Part shown: positions 25,208 to 36,338 of the stretch, one piece after another | Numbering within the stretch: the stretch's first letter is position 1 | How the letters are laid out: every line of letters begins with the position of its first letter | Assembly: GCA_936940865.1 (NCBI GenBank) | Contig: CAKZJB010000190.1 | Span: 1 to 50,272, forward strand | DNA: 50,272 nt | Direction: 5' to 3' | From: an uncultured Asticcacaulis sp. | Lineage (GTDB): Bacteria > Pseudomonadota > Alphaproteobacteria > Caulobacterales > Caulobacteraceae | The notes under the pieces: generated by a model | Told to the model about the DNA's origin: nothing | Database searches by the model: none | What the model saw: only the letters and a program-made list of their open reading frames with translations | Translations under genes and position numbers: made by a program

Positions 25208-26929
25208 ATGGCGCTGCTGCGCAGGTTCCTTAAGCGTTTCCGGGATGCTGTACGCGGCAATGTGACCGCCGCAACCGCAGTCGCCATGTTGCCGTTGGCG
25301 GCGGCCGTCGGGGGAGGCGTGGACTTCAGCAATGCGGTGGCCGCCCGGGTGAGGCTACAGGACGCGGCGGACGCCGCGGCTATCGCTGCCGCGCTCGATA
25401 CGACCGGACAGCTTGCCACTCAGCAGACGGCCGCCAACACGGCCTTCACGGCCAACATCCAGAATTCGAGCCTGAGCAACGACAGCCCGTCGGGGCAACT
25501 GTCCGTGACAACGGACAACAACGTGCAGACCATGGTCTATACGGCAAAGGCGACGGTAAAGACCTATCTGATCGGCCTGGTCGGTATTCAGTCCATTCCG
25601 CTCAGCGTGACCGCAAAAGCCGGTGTCACCATGAATTCCGCCGAAATCGCCTTCGTGCTCGATAATACGGGCTCGATGTCGCAGAACAGCAAGATGACCA
25701 CGCTCAAGGCCGACCTCGACAGCGTCCTCGCGTCGCTGGCCGATTCGAGCGGCAGTTCGGGGCGCACCAAGGTCGCGTTGATCCCCTTCGACACCCAGGT
25801 CGCCTTAAGCGACGTCTCCGGCATGACCGGCTATACCGGCAGTTTCACGGCCGTCAGCCAGACCTATACCTGTTCCAGCCTGTCGACCGGGCAGTGCAGC
25901 GCCGTCACGACCAATGCGACCTCGCTGTGTTCGAGTATCAGCAGCAGCTACGGCAGCACGGCGGCGTCCAGCTGTTCGTCGAACGCGGTGAATTACACCA
26001 AGACCTCTGGCAGCTACTATTACGTCTACACCTCGACCTGGTTCAGCAATCCCAATTATAACAGCAGCTGCTATTATTATTGCTACAACAACTACAGGTA
26101 TCTGACCTATTACCGGGTCGCCGCCTACAGCGTCGGCGGCAGTTCCGCGACCCAGGCCGGCAATTCCTCGTCTCAGGGCTATTATACGTCGTCCGCCAGC
26201 GCCGTTACGCCATACTATGTCGGCTACAGCAACTATTCGCAGTATAGCGGCACTATCACCTACGCCTATCCGACGGCCGGCGGTTACAATTCCGGTGCGA
26301 CGACGGTCTACAAGGACAACAACACCATCACGGCCAATTCGGACCTGCTGGGCGTGGGCACGCAGAACTGGTCCGGGTGCGTGATCGACCGTACCCAGCC
26401 CTACGACGTGCAGTCCGACGCGCCGTCGAGCAGCAATACCGACACCCTTTATCCGGCGTCGAAGTGCGCCACCAACTCGCTGCTGCCGATCATGGACCTG
26501 ACGACCGACATTTCGGCGGCGCGGACCTATGCGGCCAAGATGACGCCGGCCGGCAATACCAACATTACCATAGGCATCCAGTGGGGCATGGAGGTGCTGT
26601 CGCCGACGGCGCCCTTCACCAACGGCGTGGCCTTCACCGACACCACGGTCAGCAAATACATGATCGTGCTGACGGACGGTATCAATACCCAGAATCGCTG
26701 GACCACCAATGCCACGCAGATCGACGCGCGTACGGCGCAGGCCTGCACCAATGCGAAAAACCTGGGCATCACGGTGTTCACGGTCAGGCTCGAGGATGGC
26801 AATTCCAGCATGCTGCAGGCCTGCGCCTCGCAGACCGGCTACTACTACAATCTGACCAATGCCAGCCAGTTGAGCGGCGCGCTCGGCAATATCATGAAGT
26901 CGATCAAGAAGATCCGTCTGACGCAGTAA
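25208..26929 (+). CDS. TadG-like pilus-assembly protein with von Willebrand A domain
   Basis: 573 residues. The first 60 match the TadE/TadG-like N terminus (PF13400): basic RFLKRFRDAVRGNV, then a membrane helix and DFSNAVAARVRLQDAADAAA. A von Willebrand A domain begins near residue 147 with the MIDAS motif DNTGSMS (D152) and continues after a large insertion with NTNITIGIQWGM and YMIVLTDG. The insertion, about residues 220-370, is rich in Tyr, Ser, Gly and Asn and holds several Cys (SSCYYYCYNNY). The protein is probably exported and anchored, and may act in Flp pilus assembly or in adhesion, but no other tad genes are adjacent. Confidence 0.82.
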   Translation: MALLRRFLKRFRDAVRGNVTAATAVAMLPLAAAVGGGVDFSNAVAARVRLQDAADAAAIAAALDTTGQLATQQTAANTAFTANIQNSSLSNDSPSGQLSVTTDNNVQTMVYTAKATVKTYLIGLVGIQSIPLSVTAKAGVTMNSAEIAFVLDNTGSMSQNSKMTTLKADLDSVLASLADSSGSSGRTKVALIPFDTQVALSDVSGMTGYTGSFTAVSQTYTCSSLSTGQCSAVTTNATSLCSSISSSYGSTAASSCSSNAVNYTKTSGSYYYVYTSTWFSNPNYNSSCYYYCYNNYRYLTYYRVAAYSVGGSSATQAGNSSSQGYYTSSASAVTPYYVGYSNYSQYSGTITYAYPTAGGYNSGATTVYKDNNTITANSDLLGVGTQNWSGCVIDRTQPYDVQSDAPSSSNTDTLYPASKCATNSLLPIMDLTTDISAARTYAAKMTPAGNTNITIGIQWGMEVLSPTAPFTNGVAFTDTTVSKYMIVLTDGINTQNRWTTNATQIDARTAQACTNAKNLGITVFTVRLEDGNSSMLQACASQTGYYYNLTNASQLSGALGNIMKSIKKIRLTQ

Positions 26930-29974: not shown

Positions 29975-31492
29975 ATGAGCCAGAAGTCCGAAACCGCTCA
30001 GAAGAAACCCGATCCCGACATCGAAACCAAGGGCCGCGACTGGCGTGACGACGAGGTCGAAGGCGCCAACCTGGTGACGCCCGAGGAGATCGAGGATTTC
30101 GCCCTCAAGGACGATTACGCCCTCAATCCGCAATATATCTCGCTGGTTATCGACGCCGCCGACCGCGGCGACGGCATGCGGCTGCGCGACCTGCTGGACG
30201 CCCTGCACCCGGCCGACGTCGCCGACCTTCTGGGCTTCCTGTCCGAGGACTACCGCGAGGAGGTCATTCCCTGGATTCCCGGCGACGCCCTGCCGGACAT
30301 CCTGCCCGAACTCGACGACGATATCCGCGACGAGGTTATCGAGACCCTGCACACCCAGGACATCGCCGAGGTGCTGCAGGAACTCGAATCGGACGACGCC
30401 ACCGCCGTCTTCGAGGATCTTGAGGAAGACCGGCAAAAGGCCGTCCTGGCCGCCATGCCCGAGGCCGAGCGCGAGCAGTTCGTCACCTCGCTGAGCTTCG
30501 AGGAAGAGACCGCCGGCCGCCTGATGCAGCGCGAGGTCATGGCCGCGCCCAGTTTCTGGAATGTCGGCCAGACCATCGACCACATGCGGGAGAACGGCGA
30601 GGACCTGCCCGAGCTGTTCTTCGACGTCTATGTCATCGACCCCAGCCATCGTCCCGTCGGCGCCTTGCCGGTGTCGCTGCTGATGCGCTCGAAGCGCGAG
30701 ATGCTGCTGTCGGCCCTGATGGAACCGGTCACCGAAATCACGGTCGACCAGGACCAGGAAGAAGTCGCCTACATCTTCGAGAAATACCATCTGATCTCGG
30801 CGCCGGTCGTCGACCAGTCGGGACGGCTGGTGGGGCAGATCACGGTCGACGACATCGTCAACATCATCCAGGAAGAAAGCCAGGAAGACATGCTGGCCCT
30901 GGCCGGGGTCTCGGAATCGGGCCGCGACGCGTCGATCTTCGGCATTGCCCGTTCGCGCTTCTGGTGGCTGCTGATCAATCTCGGCACGGCGGTGCTGGCG
31001 TCGGGCGTCATTTCCAATTTCGAAGGCGCCATCGGCCAGCTTGTCGCCCTGGCCGTGCTCAATCCGATCGTGGCGTCCATGGGCGGCAATGCCGGCACCC
31101 AGACCTTGACGGTCGCCGTGCGGGCGTTGGCCACGCGCGAACTGAACGCCGCCAACCTGTTGCGCACCGTATGGCGCGAAGTGGCTGCCGGGGTGCTGAA
31201 CGGTATTGCCTTCGCCATCGTCATGGGGGCGGTGACGACGCTGTGGATGAGCGTCTTCCAGCACGATATGGGCACGGACCTGGCGCTGAAGCTGGGGATG
31301 ATCATTGGACTGGCCATGGTCATCAACCTGTTCGCGGCGTCGATGGCGGGGATTCTGATCCCGCTGGCTCTCGACCGCATGGGCTACGATCCGGCCGCGT
31401 CGGCCACGGTTTTCGTCACGACCGTGACCGATTGCGTGGGCTTCTTCAGCTTCCTCGGCCTGGCCGTGGTCATCCTTCATCTTCATACATGA
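29975..31492 (+). CDS. mgtE: Magnesium transporter MgtE
   Basis: 505 residues. The MgtE N domain occupies about residues 55-165 (LLDALHPADVADLLGFL repeats). Paired CBS domains follow (residues 170-300; YHLISAPVVDQSGRLVGQIT), then five membrane helices with the pore signature NPIVASMGGNAGTQTLTVAV near residue 365. Mg2+ binding between N and CBS domains closes the channel in the known structures. The start at 29975 follows GGGAGG. Its 3' end is close to the spmX promoter. Confidence 0.95.
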   Translation: MSQKSETAQKKPDPDIETKGRDWRDDEVEGANLVTPEEIEDFALKDDYALNPQYISLVIDAADRGDGMRLRDLLDALHPADVADLLGFLSEDYREEVIPWIPGDALPDILPELDDDIRDEVIETLHTQDIAEVLQELESDDATAVFEDLEEDRQKAVLAAMPEAEREQFVTSLSFEEETAGRLMQREVMAAPSFWNVGQTIDHMRENGEDLPELFFDVYVIDPSHRPVGALPVSLLMRSKREMLLSALMEPVTEITVDQDQEEVAYIFEKYHLISAPVVDQSGRLVGQITVDDIVNIIQEESQEDMLALAGVSESGRDASIFGIARSRFWWLLINLGTAVLASGVISNFEGAIGQLVALAVLNPIVASMGGNAGTQTLTVAVRALATRELNAANLLRTVWREVAAGVLNGIAFAIVMGAVTTLWMSVFQHDMGTDLALKLGMIIGLAMVINLFAASMAGILIPLALDRMGYDPAASATVFVTTVTDCVGFFSFLGLAVVILHLHT

Positions 31493-31545
31493 TGCCGGTC
31501 GGGTAACTTGCCGCAATAGCTCCATAAATATCTTGTAAGTCCGTC

Positions 31546-31562
31546 TTGGTATGTGGTTTGCT
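31546..31562 (+). promoter_or_regulatory. Sigma-54-type promoter of spmX
   Basis: TTGGTATG-TGGT-TTGCT. The -24 GG is at 31548-31549 and the -12 GC at 31560-31561, exactly 10 bases apart as sigma-54 requires, and the -12 box TTGCT is consensus. In Caulobacter, spmX is activated by TacA through sigma-54, so both motif and position agree. The transcript would start near 31573, about 100 bases before the ATG. Confidence 0.72.
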
Positions 31563-31673
31563 AGATGTTAACCGCCGGGTCGTCCGGCGTATTGTTTTGG
31601 GGCAGGCGGGGGCGTGTAATCGGCCGCCATCCATGCCATAGGCCAGAAAAGCCGGATTGGGTCGGGAATAGGG

Positions 31674-34244
31674 ATGAGAGCGCGTTTGAAGGTCTCCCGC
31701 GCCGGAGTCGAACTGATCAAGAGTTTCGAGGGGCTGCGCACCACGGCGGCGCGTCTGCCTGACGGGCGCTGGACCCTTGGCTACGGCCATACCTTTTCGG
31801 CGCGCGAAGGCGCCACCGTCACCCAGGAAGATGCCGACGCCCTCCTGCGCTTCGACCTGCTGCCGATCGTCGACGCCATCAACAACCTTGTCCTGGTGCC
31901 GCTGAACCAGAACCAGTTCGACGCCCTTGTTTCGTTCTGCTTCAACATCGGTGTCGACAATTTCGCCGCCTCGACCGTGCTGAAGCGCATCAACGAAGGC
32001 AAGATGACCGAGGCCGCCCTGGCCATGGACAGCTGGCGCTCGGCCGAATTCAACGGCCAGACCTATGTGCTGGCGCCGCTGATCCGCCGCCGCGCCGCCG
32101 AAAAGAATCTGTTCCTGACTCCGGAAGAGGTTACGGGCAACGCGCCGTCGCTGCTGGTCCGCCCCGTAGAGGACGCTTCGCCGGCGCCCGCGCACCCTGC
32201 CGAGATCGAGGCGCCGGCCCCCGGCGGCATTCTGTCGGCCCGCCCGCTCGGCCAGCCGGAAGCCGCGCCGGTCGAACCGGCCCCGGGGACCTATACGCCC
32301 CCCTTCGAGATTTCCGCGACGCCTGCGCCTGTTCCCGCCACGGCGGCGCCGCAGCCTGCACAGCCCGCGGAACGCCAGGTCATCGACCTTGCCAGCTTCG
32401 CCCCGCGTCCGCAGGACGCCGCCCCGGCCAAGCCGACCATCCAACTGGTCGCCGACGTGGCGCCGTCCGTGCCCGGTGTGGTCGAACAGTCGCCGACGGC
32501 CTATGACTACGATCCGACGCCGGTTATGAGCCCCGAGGTCCAGGCCGCCCTGTTCCGGGCGCAGGAAGAACAACGGGCCGCCGAACAGCGCGCGCAGGAG
32601 CAGCGGTTGCAGGAAGAGGCCCGCCGTCAGGCCGAGGCCCTGGCCGCCGCACGCCTCGCCGAGGAAGTCCGCCAGCGCGAGGAACAGCGCCGCCGCGAGG
32701 AAGAGCGCCTGCAGGAGCTGCAGCGCCAGGAACTCTTGCGGCTGGAAACCGAACGCCTGGAGCGCGAGCGTCTGGACCGGGAGCGCCTGGACCGAGAGCG
32801 TCTGGAGCGCGAGGCCCAGATGCGCGCTGAACTGGCCCGCCTCGAACAGGAACGCCTGGAGCAGGAGCGTCGCGAGCGTGAGCGGCTTGAGGACGCCCGT
32901 GCCGAAGCCATTCGTCTCGAAGCGGAGCGCCTCGACCGGGAGCGCCAGGAAGCCGAGCAGCGCGAACAGGTCCGTCTCGAAGCGCAACGCCTTGAAGCCG
33001 AGCGGCTGGAGCGCGAGCGTCACGAGGCTGAACAGCGCGAACTGGCCCGTCTCGAAGCGGAGCGCCTCGACCGTGAGCGCGCCGAGGCCGCCCGTCTCGA
33101 AAGTGAGCGTCAGGAGGCCGCTCGTCAGGAAGCTGCCCGTCTTGAGCAGGCCCGTCTTGAGCAGGCCCGTCTTGAGCAGGCTCGCCTCGAACAGGAGCGC
33201 CGCGACAATGAGGAACGGGCGAGGCTGGCCGAGGCCGCCGAGCGGATGCGCGCCGAGCAGGCGCGGCTTGAACAGGCACGCCTGGAGCGCGAACGCCAGG
33301 AACGGGAACGTCAGTTGCAAACGGCGGCTGCGGGAGCCAGGGTCGCCGAGGACGCCGATGCTGAAAAGGCCCGCAAGGCGGAAGCCGCAGCCGCGCTGAT
33401 GCGTCTTTATTCGCCTTACGGCAGCGGTGCGCTCGGAAAGCCGCTGACGCCGCAACCGGTCGCCCAGCCCGTTGCGCCTCGGCCCGCGCAGCCGCAATCC
33501 GTCCAGCCCCAGCCCGTCGTTGCGGCTCCGGCGCCCGAACCGGCCGGCCTGTCCGTTCCCGAGCCGGAGGAAGACGATGAAGAGTCCGGCTTTGCCGGCG
33601 GCGCCAGTTTCACCCCGTTCCAGCCGGTCCAGTCGCCGTCGACCATGCCGCCGCCGACCGTGACCGCGCTCAACCCTTACGCCCGGCCGATCCAGAAGAC
33701 CGAGGGGCCGAAGGAAGCGCCGCGGGACGTGCTGGTCGAGGTGCCGCGCCCGGCGCCGGTCAATCCTGCCGCGCCGTCCAACGCGCCGTTCGCCGGCGCC
33801 CAGCCCGAGGCGCCGGCGCAAGCCCCGCACTGGCGCGAGCAGTTGAACCGCCCGCTGCCGGAAAACCGGCCCGAGGCGCCGGAACAGACCCGCTTCATGC
33901 AGGCTTCGACCGCGCCCGCCCAGGACGCCTTCGCGGACGACGAATGGACCTTCGACGGTGACCGCGTCGCCCTGTCCGCGGAAGAGGCCGAGGAGGAACA
34001 TGCCTCCTGGTGGCGCATGATCGTCTCCACGGCCTGGTGGATATTGTTCAGTTGCTTCGGCCTGGGCCTTCTGGGCTTTGCCGCCGCCGCCTACTGGCGC
34101 AGCGCCTACGATCAGGCCGTGTTGCGCGAAGGCCATCAGACCGATCTGATGATGCTGTCGGTGGTCATGGCCGCGGCGGGCATCTTCTTCGTCTGCGTCT
34201 CGGTCTGGCTGATCCTGAAGCGCCTGGGCGGCCTGAAGGACTGA
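31674..34244 (+). CDS. spmX: SpmX: muramidase-fold polarity factor with giant coiled coil
   Basis: 856 residues, about twice Caulobacter SpmX (431). Residues 1-150 are a GH24 lysozyme fold ([13 protein letters not shown], then [13 protein letters not shown]) with catalytic E19 and T34, but Leu28 replaces the usual catalytic Asp. Residues about 150-285 are Pro/Ala-rich. About 285-570 is a continuous Arg/Glu/Leu coiled coil ([16 protein letters not shown]). A second Pro-rich part leads to two membrane helices (about 783-802 and 826-848) at the C terminus. In Caulobacter the protein localises and stimulates the kinase DivJ at the stalked pole; in Asticcacaulis it defines the site of the sub-polar or lateral stalks, and the intermediate region is expanded. 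Ends 10 bases after GLKD near a bidirectional terminator. Confidence 0.87.
33138..33197 (+). repeat. 15-bp tandem repeats inside the spmX coiled coil
   Basis: Three nearly identical units of CGTCTTGAGCAGGCC (33138-33182; the last ends in T) and a diverged fourth (33183-33197) encode ARLEQ repeats. Near-identity of silent bases suggests recent duplication by slippage. Similar but older units encode ERLDR near 32770-32815. Confidence 0.85.
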
Positions 34245-34266
34245 GCATCGTCAAGCCCGGAACATG

Positions 34267-34302
34267 AAGGGAGAAGGACAAGGTCCTTCTCCCTTTTTAT
34301 TT
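34267..34302. terminator. Bidirectional terminator between spmX and the patatin gene
   Basis: AAGGGAGAAGGAC (34267-34279) and its exact complement (34283-34295) with loop AAG. TTTTATTT follows on the plus strand. The minus-strand gene reads into it, but that side carries only a short T-run. Confidence 0.82.
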
Positions 34303-36168
34303 GCTCTGGGCCTTGGGCGCAGGCTTCACCGTCTTGGGCGCAGGCTTCGCCGCCCTGGCTGGCGGCTTCGACGCCTCGTCGACATAGCTGGTGTCGTCCG
34401 GGGTGAAGGCCGGGATGTTCGGATGGACGCTGCGACCCATCTTGCGCAGGGTCGTGACCGGCGAGTCGAGCTGGGCCAGGGTCTCGACCGTGGTCTGGTA
34501 GCCGTTTTCGACGGCGCGGTCATAAGCCTTCCAGTCGCGGATTTCGACGCCGTCGGGCTCCGGGATAATCAGCAGGTCGGTCGCGGCGCGCGACTGCGCC
34601 AGGTCGGCGGCGGTGGTGATGGTCGCCGAACGCATCATGACCGAGACGATGGGCGGGCCGCGCCGCCATTCGCCGCGCGCGAACCAGGCGCTGACATGCC
34701 GGGTCGACAGGGCGCGGGGGTCGAGGCCGCGCGCCCGGGTGACGTCGACGCCGATGACGGTGCCGAGGTGCGTATTGCGCATCATGGTGGCGGGGAAGGA
34801 GCGCATGACGGCGCCGTCGACCAGCACCTGGCCGTCTTCGACGACGGGCGGCATGACGCCCGGCAGCGATATGGAGGCCCGGAGCGCCTCGCGCAGGCGG
34901 CCGGTCTTGTGGACCTTGAGCACACCGCTGGTCAGGTTCGACGACAGGCAGAAATAGGGCAGGGCCAGGTCTTCGATCATGGCCTCGCCGAAATGTTTCT
35001 CCAGCCGTTCGTCGACCTTCTTGCCGGACGTCATCGCGATGAAGGGAAAGGTGATGTCGTCGAGCGGCGATGTGTCGACGAAGGCATCGCGCAGACGGAC
35101 ATCGATCTCGTCATTGTCCCATTCCAGCGCGATGGTCGACGCCAGGATCGCGCCCATGGACGACCCGCAGACGAAATCGATCGGGATGTGGGCCTCGCGC
35201 AGGGCCAGGAGTGCGCCGATCTGGGCAAAGGCGCGGGCGCCGCCGCCGGAAAAGACGACGCCGACGCTGTGCCCGCACACGACGCGGGCGATGCGCGACA
35301 GGTCAGAGACGTCCTCGCGCCCGATATGGAACCAGCGCGTCGGCTTGATGGCGTCGAGCCAGGAGCGAGTCCGCCCCGGGATGGTGCCGCGGTCGCCGCG
35401 GTTTTCATAGGACAGGATCAGGTCGGGTGCGCGGTGCAGCAGCGATTTCTCGCCCTCGGTCTGCCACAGGTCAGGCTTCTCGCTGCCGTCGGCGACCAGG
35501 AAAACCTGGTCGACCTGGCGCGAGCTCAGGAGGCGCCAGTGGCTCTCATGTTTCTCGGCGACATGCAGGACATAGTCGTTTTCGGCCTCGATGCGCGAAA
35601 AGGCCTCGGGCGTCGTGCCGTGAAAGCCCTTGTCGAGGACGGCGACCTTGTAGCCCAGCGCGCGGACCTGGGTGGCGATGCGCTCGACCATCGGATGGAT
35701 CGGTCTCTCGCACACCGCGAAGAAGGCGAAGACGTTGGGCGTGACCGCCGGTATGTCGCGGCGGGCGCGCTCGATCATCTTGCGCGACAGGGCCATCAGC
35801 AGTTCGGGGTGGGTGTCGATGGCGCGGAAGAAGTCTTCGCGCGGCATGGCCAGCAGGTCGGAATCGCGCAGGGCCATGACGGTCGCCGTGTGCGGCGTGC
35901 CGGCGATCAGCGACATTTCGCCGACTGGTTCGCCCGGCCGGATAATGCCGATCAGGCTCAGTTCGTCGTGATCCTCGTCGTGACGGAACGCGCCCAGGCG
36001 TCCAGAACGCAGCAGGTAGAGGTGGTCCGATTCGTCGCCTGTGCTGAACAGCCGCGACCCGCCGGGCAGGGAAATTACGCTGGCCCCTTCGCCGAGCGAT
36101 GTGCCGAACAGGCTTTCCAGTGCCGCCTGCAGCGTCGGATTTGCCTTATGCTTCTTGTCTTCCGTCAT
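34297..36168 (-). CDS. Patatin-like phospholipase with N-terminal cNMP-binding domain
   Basis: 623 residues. Residues about 15-130 are a cyclic-nucleotide-binding fold (GSRLFSTGDESDHLYLLRSG; GEPVGEMSLIAGTPHTATV). The patatin domain (about 300-500) has the oxyanion loop SGGGARAFAQIG, the nucleophile in GSSMG near residue 335 and the dyad Asp in LVDGAVMRS near residue 450. This layout matches the neuropathy-target-esterase family, which deacylates lysophospholipids. The ATG at 36168 (MTEDKKHK) is preferred over an in-frame GTG at 36195. The tail is Lys/Pro-rich. The domains suggest control by a cyclic nucleotide, but binding is unproven. Confidence 0.9.
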   Translation of the reverse strand: MTEDKKHKANPTLQAALESLFGTSLGEGASVISLPGGSRLFSTGDESDHLYLLRSGRLGAFRHDEDHDELSLIGIIRPGEPVGEMSLIAGTPHTATVMALRDSDLLAMPREDFFRAIDTHPELLMALSRKMIERARRDIPAVTPNVFAFFAVCERPIHPMVERIATQVRALGYKVAVLDKGFHGTTPEAFSRIEAENDYVLHVAEKHESHWRLLSSRQVDQVFLVADGSEKPDLWQTEGEKSLLHRAPDLILSYENRGDRGTIPGRTRSWLDAIKPTRWFHIGREDVSDLSRIARVVCGHSVGVVFSGGGARAFAQIGALLALREAHIPIDFVCGSSMGAILASTIALEWDNDEIDVRLRDAFVDTSPLDDITFPFIAMTSGKKVDERLEKHFGEAMIEDLALPYFCLSSNLTSGVLKVHKTGRLREALRASISLPGVMPPVVEDGQVLVDGAVMRSFPATMMRNTHLGTVIGVDVTRARGLDPRALSTRHVSAWFARGEWRRGPPIVSVMMRSATITTAADLAQSRAATDLLIIPEPDGVEIRDWKAYDRAVENGYQTTVETLAQLDSPVTTLRKMGRSVHPNIPAFTPDDTSYVDEASKPPARAAKPAPKTVKPAPKAQSK

Positions 36169-36338
36169 GCGCTTCACACTGCAGCATATTGCCACCGCCT
36201 TATACGGAAGCCATATGTTTTACCGGTCTCTTTTTTAAGCGATGCTGTAAGACGGCGTCGCCTCCCTATATAGAGATGCGCCGAAATGGCTTCCAAGCTG
36301 TTAACCCTGCCAAATCGCTTGCCTCTGAAAGGACCTCC

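Follow-up and report, generated by a model that had tools for sequence, protein, structure and literature searches.

This analysis concerns an spmX gene and its promoter in an uncultured Asticcacaulis species. The stretch of DNA that was analysed, here called the window, comprises 50,272 nucleotides (contig CAKZJB010000190.1 of GenBank assembly GCA_936940865.1) and is part of a 5.07-Mb draft genome in 245 contigs. The closest described systems are the SpmX proteins of A. biprosthecum, A. excentricus and Caulobacter crescentus. In the first two species, SpmX is the determinant of the stalk site. The middle region of Asticcacaulis SpmX is expanded by more than 370 residues and has been called unstructured, and the residues that position the stalk have been placed either in this region or in the membrane part (Randich and Brun 2015, PMC4460556). 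BacA is a binding partner that SpmX recruits in A. biprosthecum (PMC12364344). In C. crescentus, no lysozyme activity was found for SpmX, which is described as a fold put to a new use, the binding of PopZ and DivJ (PMC5347347). The genes spmX and staR are targets of TacA in that species (PMC7010744), and TacA orthologs have been reported in Asticcacaulis (PMC5590869).

The protein encoded in the window agrees with those of A. biprosthecum and A. excentricus in gene, order of parts, length class, a leucine at position 28 and the neighbouring gene mgtE. It comes from another species, and its charged segment differs in length and in type of repeat. With C. crescentus SpmX it shares a GH24 domain, a proline-rich middle, two membrane helices, a sigma-54 element and a second element downstream of it. 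The C. crescentus protein differs in having only about 430 residues, in lacking a long charged segment, and in a promoter that lies nearer the start codon (51-52 nt in L088 and L103). As regards the gene, the length class, the changed active site and control by sigma-54 and TacA, the window adds a further species to what was already known. The new and testable points are the reading of the charged segment as a helix and the downstream element, which is shared with a second gene. The accessible literature on A. biprosthecum and A. excentricus SpmX does not state the charged-helix nature of the segment, and neither the element nor the second gene was found described in the available parts of the literature on the TacA/sigma-54 regulon. 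Among the matches listed, titles and abstract openings described neither the helix reading of SpmX nor the TacA element. Taken as a whole, the explanation that we hold with slightly better than even confidence is an spmX gene with a sigma-54/TacA promoter, encoding a scaffold protein with a putative stiff single-helix arm.

SpmX was found in all of the 25 Asticcacaulis genomes searched; 24 complete proteins were compared, and the 25th (L039), which runs off its contig, was left out. The best NCBIfam match of the 856-residue protein in the window is the SpmX model, at 218.7 bits. This is under the curated cut-off of 700; the model, with 430 positions, fits the short Caulobacter form. The solved chain nearest to the GH24 domain is 6h9d (255 bits, 119 of 149 residues identical), and the next, an endolysin, scores 93 bits. 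We take 6h9d to be the SpmX domain of A. excentricus, although the PDB listing says "Lysozyme" only; it is identical over 149 of 149 residues to the Asticcacaulis SpmX proteins L042, L044, L096 and L097. In a tree of 51 GH24 domains, 24 Asticcacaulis and 18 other SpmX proteins fall together, apart from nine lysozymes (support 100/99). A first-pass annotation, made from the sequence alone, had called the gene SpmX, and both the identity to 6h9d and the tree bear this out; the N-terminal domain is nearer to SpmX than to phage endolysins. Within the tree, a group of 10 that is not firm (93/88) unites the window's protein with A. biprosthecum, A. taihuensis, A. benevestitus and A. solisilvae. By its GH24 domain, the closest relative with a name is A. 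solisilvae BE327, at 94%. On these comparisons, the gene for the 856-residue protein is spmX, and the species is an Asticcacaulis close to A. biprosthecum, A. taihuensis and A. solisilvae.

The same annotation was right about the promoter, the open reading frame and the site residues, and had given the impression that the double length was a peculiarity of the protein. The length of 856 residues is real, but it belongs to the genus: complete Asticcacaulis SpmX proteins have 690-895 residues in 24 of 24 cases. Nine short-form loci from named Caulobacter species encode 411-429 residues, Caulobacter sp. S45 (L065) 381, and Hyphomonas-like loci 379-396, while the remaining family members that were fetched have 327-511. 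Two sister genera reach 622 and 648 residues through a proline-rich expansion. In the window's protein, the layout is that of SpmX, with two C-terminal membrane helices, predicted by AlphaFold2, after the middle region.

The expansion in Asticcacaulis has a different core. The longest stretch without proline or glycine in the window's SpmX, residues 288-553, is 266 residues long and 53% charged. Such runs have 131-334 residues in all of the 24 complete Asticcacaulis proteins. A charged run of this kind is present in none of 34 other SpmX rows (some of them incomplete or duplicate), and the longest proline- and glycine-free run in the middle of 20 further family members has 29 residues.

Evidence for a helix comes from the pattern of charges. 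Residues of opposite charge are paired at i+3 and i+4 above the level of shuffled sequences in all 24 Asticcacaulis segments (z 4.1-10.9). The charge correlations at offsets 1 to 4 are -0.17, -0.12, -0.26 and -0.27 in the group of 11 Asticcacaulis to which the window belongs, and -0.06, -0.17, -0.38 and -0.30 in the other 13. If nothing but a 5-residue repeat were at work, the values at offsets 1 and 4 would be equal, and so would those at 2 and 3; the pairing observed at offsets 3 and 4 exceeds that at offsets 1 and 2. From 14 aligned sequences, AlphaFold2 predicts helices at residues 287-451, 459-553 and 559-579, the first two mostly with pLDDT 78-89. Within the segment, these two helices cover 165 and 95 residues. 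For a Caulobacter control (10 sequences, mean pLDDT 44.8), a single short middle helix is predicted, at residues 214-229 (16 residues).

The first-pass annotation had described a charged coiled coil of 285 residues. The charged segment exists, at 266 residues rather than 285, but its coiled-coil nature is unsupported. No hydrophobic period of 3.4-3.75 residues was seen in the segments, the maximum power in any of the 24 being 3.1, and the windowed means of the heptad band lay under those of shuffled sequences in 23 of them. By contrast, three 200-residue stretches of an SMC-type protein from the same genome, used as a positive control, gave heptad power of 6.9, 15.5 and 11.1, at least twice their shuffles in every case. 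A canonical coiled coil was rejected for this reason. A dimeric or tetrameric coiled coil through which SpmX oligomerises would agree with the prediction of a long helix, and C. crescentus SpmX does oligomerise via a middle region that holds a predicted helix of 19 residues (PMC5347347). Against the missing heptad signal, and with non-heptad coiled coils a possibility, this alternative is judged unlikely.

Single alpha-helix (ER/K) domains occur, for example, in myosins. The segment resembles them in the dense pairing of opposite charges at i+3 and i+4 and in the lack of a hydrophobic stripe. The likeness is one of kind only, and homology is not claimed. Unlike those domains, the Asticcacaulis segment is built of 5- and 6-residue repeats that contain leucine, and belongs to a bacterial scaffold anchored in the membrane. 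On charge pattern and structure prediction, a single charged alpha-helix fits the segment best, rather than a coiled coil.

Several observations weigh against a single helix. The AlphaFold2 model has a mean pLDDT of 57.5 from 14 close sequences, and its GH24 part is poorly modelled, as a shallow alignment would lead one to expect. A prediction for a monomer is compatible with a dimer, and sequences of this type may be called helical from their composition alone. A repeat of 5 or 6 residues inflates z relative to shuffles, and in one protein (L094) the windowed mean of the heptad band is slightly over its shuffles. To these are added a faint resemblance to pentapeptide repeats and the description of the expanded region as unstructured in the review cited above (PMC4460556).

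That description would suit an expansion that is essentially disordered and acts by condensation, like the middle region of C. crescentus SpmX, where approximately 200 residues form condensates that hold DivJ (PMC8849385). The proline-rich parts on either side of the segment do look disordered in the AlphaFold2 model. For the segment itself, 266 residues without proline or glycine, an ordered pattern of salt bridges and a predicted helix make disorder quite unlikely. The resemblance to pentapeptide repeats raises another alternative, in which the ARLEQ pentads form a pentapeptide-repeat beta-helix. The Pfam family Pentapeptide (PF00805) matches the window's SpmX at 14.1 bits and L031 at 18.7, both under its cut-off of 20.2, and L096 is without a match. 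Weak PDB matches to the segment (best E 0.0025) include several that are presumably pentapeptide-repeat proteins. Since the scores stay under the cut-off, the charge repeats of other species are 6 residues long, and a helix is predicted, a beta-helix is scarcely credible. The charged segment of the A. excentricus-like SpmX L096 (L096:4111-5049, plus strand) has a sub-threshold match to the Pfam "LED repeat", at 18.6 bits against a cut-off of 59.

The putative helix appears to have been lengthened by its repeats. Among 141 tandem arrays in the 24 segments, the period is divisible by 3 in 140, and 74 have a period of 15 bp. Judged from these arrays, the segment changes in length through in-frame duplications, mostly of 15 bp. 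A charged helix of 266 residues would extend approximately 40 nm at 0.15 nm per residue. Rich in arginine and glutamate and specific to the genus, the segment sits between the GH24 domain and the predicted membrane helices. Such a long, salt-bridged alpha-helix could act as a stiff arm that links the membrane anchor to the lysozyme-like head, which would oligomerise and bind partners at the stalk site. If the core of the expansion is a stiff helix, the question of stalk position becomes testable via the length and stiffness of that helix.

The charged segment is directly followed by a motif at residues 567-583, identical at 17 of 17 positions in 11 and at 16 of 17 in 13 of the complete Asticcacaulis proteins. 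It was considered as a homologue of a short AAxxVxxRLxxLL helix found in Caulobacter, Phenylobacterium-like and Hyphomonas SpmX, and failed the test. Under a position-specific scoring matrix of 20 segments, the motif ranked between 21st and 55th within the 24 proteins, and its score was reached by all shuffles. L086 (NVAAAAVMSARLFSPYG), from a sister genus, looks intermediate and is ranked first within its own protein by the matrix, yet 31% of shuffles equalled its score. The short helix as the origin of the long Asticcacaulis helix is unproven.

The head of the protein is a GH24 domain, matched by the Pfam phage lysozyme family (PF00959) at residues 16-143 (E 3.7e-37). The catalytic triad of GH24 lysozymes consists of Glu, Asp and Thr. 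As the first-pass annotation had claimed, E19 and T34 are kept, and leucine (L28) stands nine residues after the glutamate, where active GH24 lysozymes have the aspartate. This leucine is no peculiarity of the protein, since all 24 Asticcacaulis proteins have it, as do 48 of 50 other SpmX (the exceptions are L065 and L152). Position 34 is Thr in 15, Met in eight and Ser in one of the Asticcacaulis proteins. An active muramidase would be suggested by the retained E19 and T34. It is made very improbable by the loss of the aspartate in nearly all SpmX, by the lack of detected activity in the C. crescentus protein (PMC5347347), and by the position of the domain, which lies N-terminal to the membrane helices, lacks a signal peptide and so should be cytoplasmic. 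SpmX would act as a scaffold rather than a muramidase, a role that the annotation had proposed and that agrees with the same work on C. crescentus. A PF10691 protein, which we take to be PopZ, and a bactofilin are encoded in the window's genome.

The promoter of spmX carries GG-N10-GC at 31548-31561, and the GC lies 112 nt before the ATG at 31674, exactly as first described. This dinucleotide pair was rejected as evidence when taken alone, for it is too common: there are four of them no more than 160 nt from the spmX ATG. The extended consensus that contains it is more telling. The pattern TGGYAYGN4TTGCW has three exact matches in the 5.07-Mb genome, compared with none for a reversed-pattern control, and with an ad hoc weighting, none of 200 base-shuffles of the 300-nt upstream region equalled the score of the real sequence. 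GG-N8-TTGC occurs in all of 54 distinct 160-nt stretches upstream of spmX, where dinucleotide shuffles would lead one to expect 4.9 (related sequences not being independent). After the addition of 19 further loci, it was found within the accepted distance range in 71 of 73 distinct leaders; L155 and L164 are without a promoter under the strict pattern.

Control of spmX by sigma-54 is supported by this conservation and by the presence of both RpoN and a TacA-like activator in the genome. PF00158 has nine matches there, and three proteins are full-length sigma-54 activators: FlbD, NtrX and a response regulator of 486 residues. The first two score over their model cut-offs, and the third under every cut-off shown. 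It is called TacA-like as the activator that remains once FlbD and NtrX are assigned, no model for TacA existing. Its Caulobacter ortholog (L125, 76% identical) ends in Ala-Gly, the C-terminus described for TacA (PMC7010744). The copy in the window's genome ends in Val-Gly instead, which counts against the assignment. TacA would activate the spmX promoter, perhaps from the element described next. NtrC was assigned to none of the three full-length activators; its absence may be real or a gap in the draft.

The element is a 17-bp sequence downstream of the promoter. In all 71 promoter-bearing leaders, the best match to its consensus, YGTNYYRNNNTGGGTCA, is found 24-28 nt past the GC; the whole leader and a further 30 nt were scored. 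The consensus derives from the same leaders, and a fixed offset was not imposed. Positions 2, 3 and 12 (G, T and G) are invariant in them. A score of at least 11 out of 13 is reached in 58 of the 71, compared with 68 of 7100 shuffles. The spacing between promoter and element stays constant although the distance from promoter to ATG differs, being 90-118 nt in the 11 Asticcacaulis of the window's group and 49-52 nt in other Asticcacaulis. Because of this, the element belongs to the promoter and not to the start codon. Together with a sigma-54 element before a second gene, the fixed distance ties it to initiation.

The first-pass annotation had pointed to the 3' end of mgtE for TacA sites. There, an alignment of eight upstream regions shows CTTGT conserved just before the promoter, without a clear repeat, and the downstream element is the better candidate for a TacA site. 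As such it offers a concrete candidate for the binding site of the activator. The alternative that it is a repressor site or a signal in the leader RNA has nearly, though not quite, an even chance. The element lies inside the probable transcribed leader, at about +16 to +32, and sigma-54 activators usually bind further away. It is only partly palindromic: two of seven pairs are complementary in 59 and 62 of the 71 leaders, the others in 15-41. A search for it alone yielded 12 matches in five genomes, compared with six for a control, a weak enrichment, and just two of the 12 were spmX. Set against a repressor or RNA signal are the fixed distance to the promoter beside the variable one to the ATG, the company of a sigma-54 element before the second gene, and the lack of any Rfam match at the gathering threshold in 31400-34600, leader included.

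Two of the matches outside spmX sit 25-27 nt from GG-N8-(T/C)TGC. One such match, in another genome (L188), is at the gene of a small protein. In the window's genome, the start of a PAS_5 gene (L191 near 1500; G000:C100 near 5519) falls at an element-like site, 27 nt away from GG-N8-TTGC, with the element reversed.

If promoter and element form a regulatory unit, the same arrangement can be sought elsewhere. The composite, a promoter followed after 24-29 nt by the element, has 124 matches in 85 of the 119 genomes of the family searched, compared with 18 for a reversed control (sums by hand). Of these, 52 are spmX (counted by hand), a match that follows from how the composite was built. The composite also stands before the gene of one and the same protein, approximately 450 residues long, in 18 genomes that belong to six genera; five of these genomes are Asticcacaulis. 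This protein begins with MF(E/D)F.RELKR or a close variant in 17 of 20 loci read, and also in L210. The other 54 matches will include chance hits, and in the window's genome spmX is the only match. Two members of the protein are without a Pfam match up to E 0.1, and one of two compared with NCBIfam has a single sub-threshold match there. A profile of five rows found no PDB match up to E 0.1.

Because spmX and this gene share the unit, the element is likely a regulator's site. The two genes form a candidate TacA-controlled unit, TacA being the obvious candidate, and the element points to an unnamed gene that shares the promoter plan of spmX in six genera. A broader reading that joins both new observations is offered tentatively, as possible rather than probable. 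The Asticcacaulis stalk would have been relocated with the help of a rigid single alpha-helix, up to approximately 50 nm long and lengthened by 15-bp duplications, which holds a partner-binding head off the membrane and may determine the site of SpmX clusters or the membrane geometry on which they form. In the same reading, spmX would lie in an ancient, unusually compact sigma-54 unit. Its activator, probably TacA, would bind on the downstream side of the -12 element, at a distance of 24-28 nt, and the unit would also drive the second, conserved gene of approximately 450 residues, a new candidate member of the swarmer-to-stalked programme.

Features of the spmX locus (window positions) and three loci of the approximately 450-residue gene
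Feature	Position	Strand	Basis or remark
mgtE, conserved upstream neighbour	29975..31492	+	Pfam/NCBIfam
Sigma-54 -24/-12 promoter element TGGTATGTGGTTTGCT	31547..31562	+	Exact consensus; conserved upstream of spmX
Probable 5' leader	31573..31673	+	Start near 31573 inferred from promoter
17-bp element CGTATTGTTTTGGGGCA, candidate activator (TacA) site	31588..31604	+	Conserved spacing; composite before second gene
spmX, 856 residues, ATG start	31674..34244	+	Open reading frame list, Pfam, NCBIfam, nearest solved chain, GH24 tree
GH24 lysozyme-like domain, residues 1-150	31674..32123	+	Pfam PF00959, 6h9d
E19	31728-31730	+	Site in GH24 domain
L28	31755-31757	+	Site in GH24 domain
T34	31773-31775	+	Site in GH24 domain
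Proline-rich linker, residues 151-287	32124..32534	+	Alignment; without predicted structure
Charged proline/glycine-free segment, residues 288-553, predicted long alpha-helix, break near 451-458	32535..33332	+	Composition, charge pairing, AlphaFold2
75-bp unit, 2.1 copies, inside segment	32916..33070	+	Tandem repeats
15-bp unit GCCCGTCTTGAGCAG, 3.1 perfect copies, repeat ARLEQ	33135..33181	+	Tandem repeats
17-residue conserved motif, residues 567-583	33372..33422	+	Alignment
12-residue conserved stretch, residues 718-729	33825..33860	+	Alignment
Two predicted membrane helices, residues 779-812 and 822-851	34008..34226	+	AlphaFold2 model
Gene of approximately 450 residues	L223:574-1938	+	Composite upstream
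Gene of approximately 450 residues	L227:520-1857	+	Composite upstream
Gene of approximately 450 residues	L225:613-1950	-	Composite upstream

By a hand count, the gene immediately before spmX is mgtE in 70 of 77 loci, with a gap of 66-232 nt in 69 loci and of 1801 nt in L047, a Caulobacter bin. On the minus strand, an antisense open frame of 888 codons (31470-34136) spans all of spmX; it most probably results from G+C-rich codon usage and from the repeats. An open reading frame of 573 residues on the plus strand (25208-26929) has an odd stretch rich in Tyr and Ser in the middle of its protein. Convergent to spmX, on the minus strand (34297-36195), is a gene for a patatin-like protein with a cyclic-nucleotide-binding domain (Pfam), and a patatin-like gene is likewise convergent to spmX in many Asticcacaulis loci.

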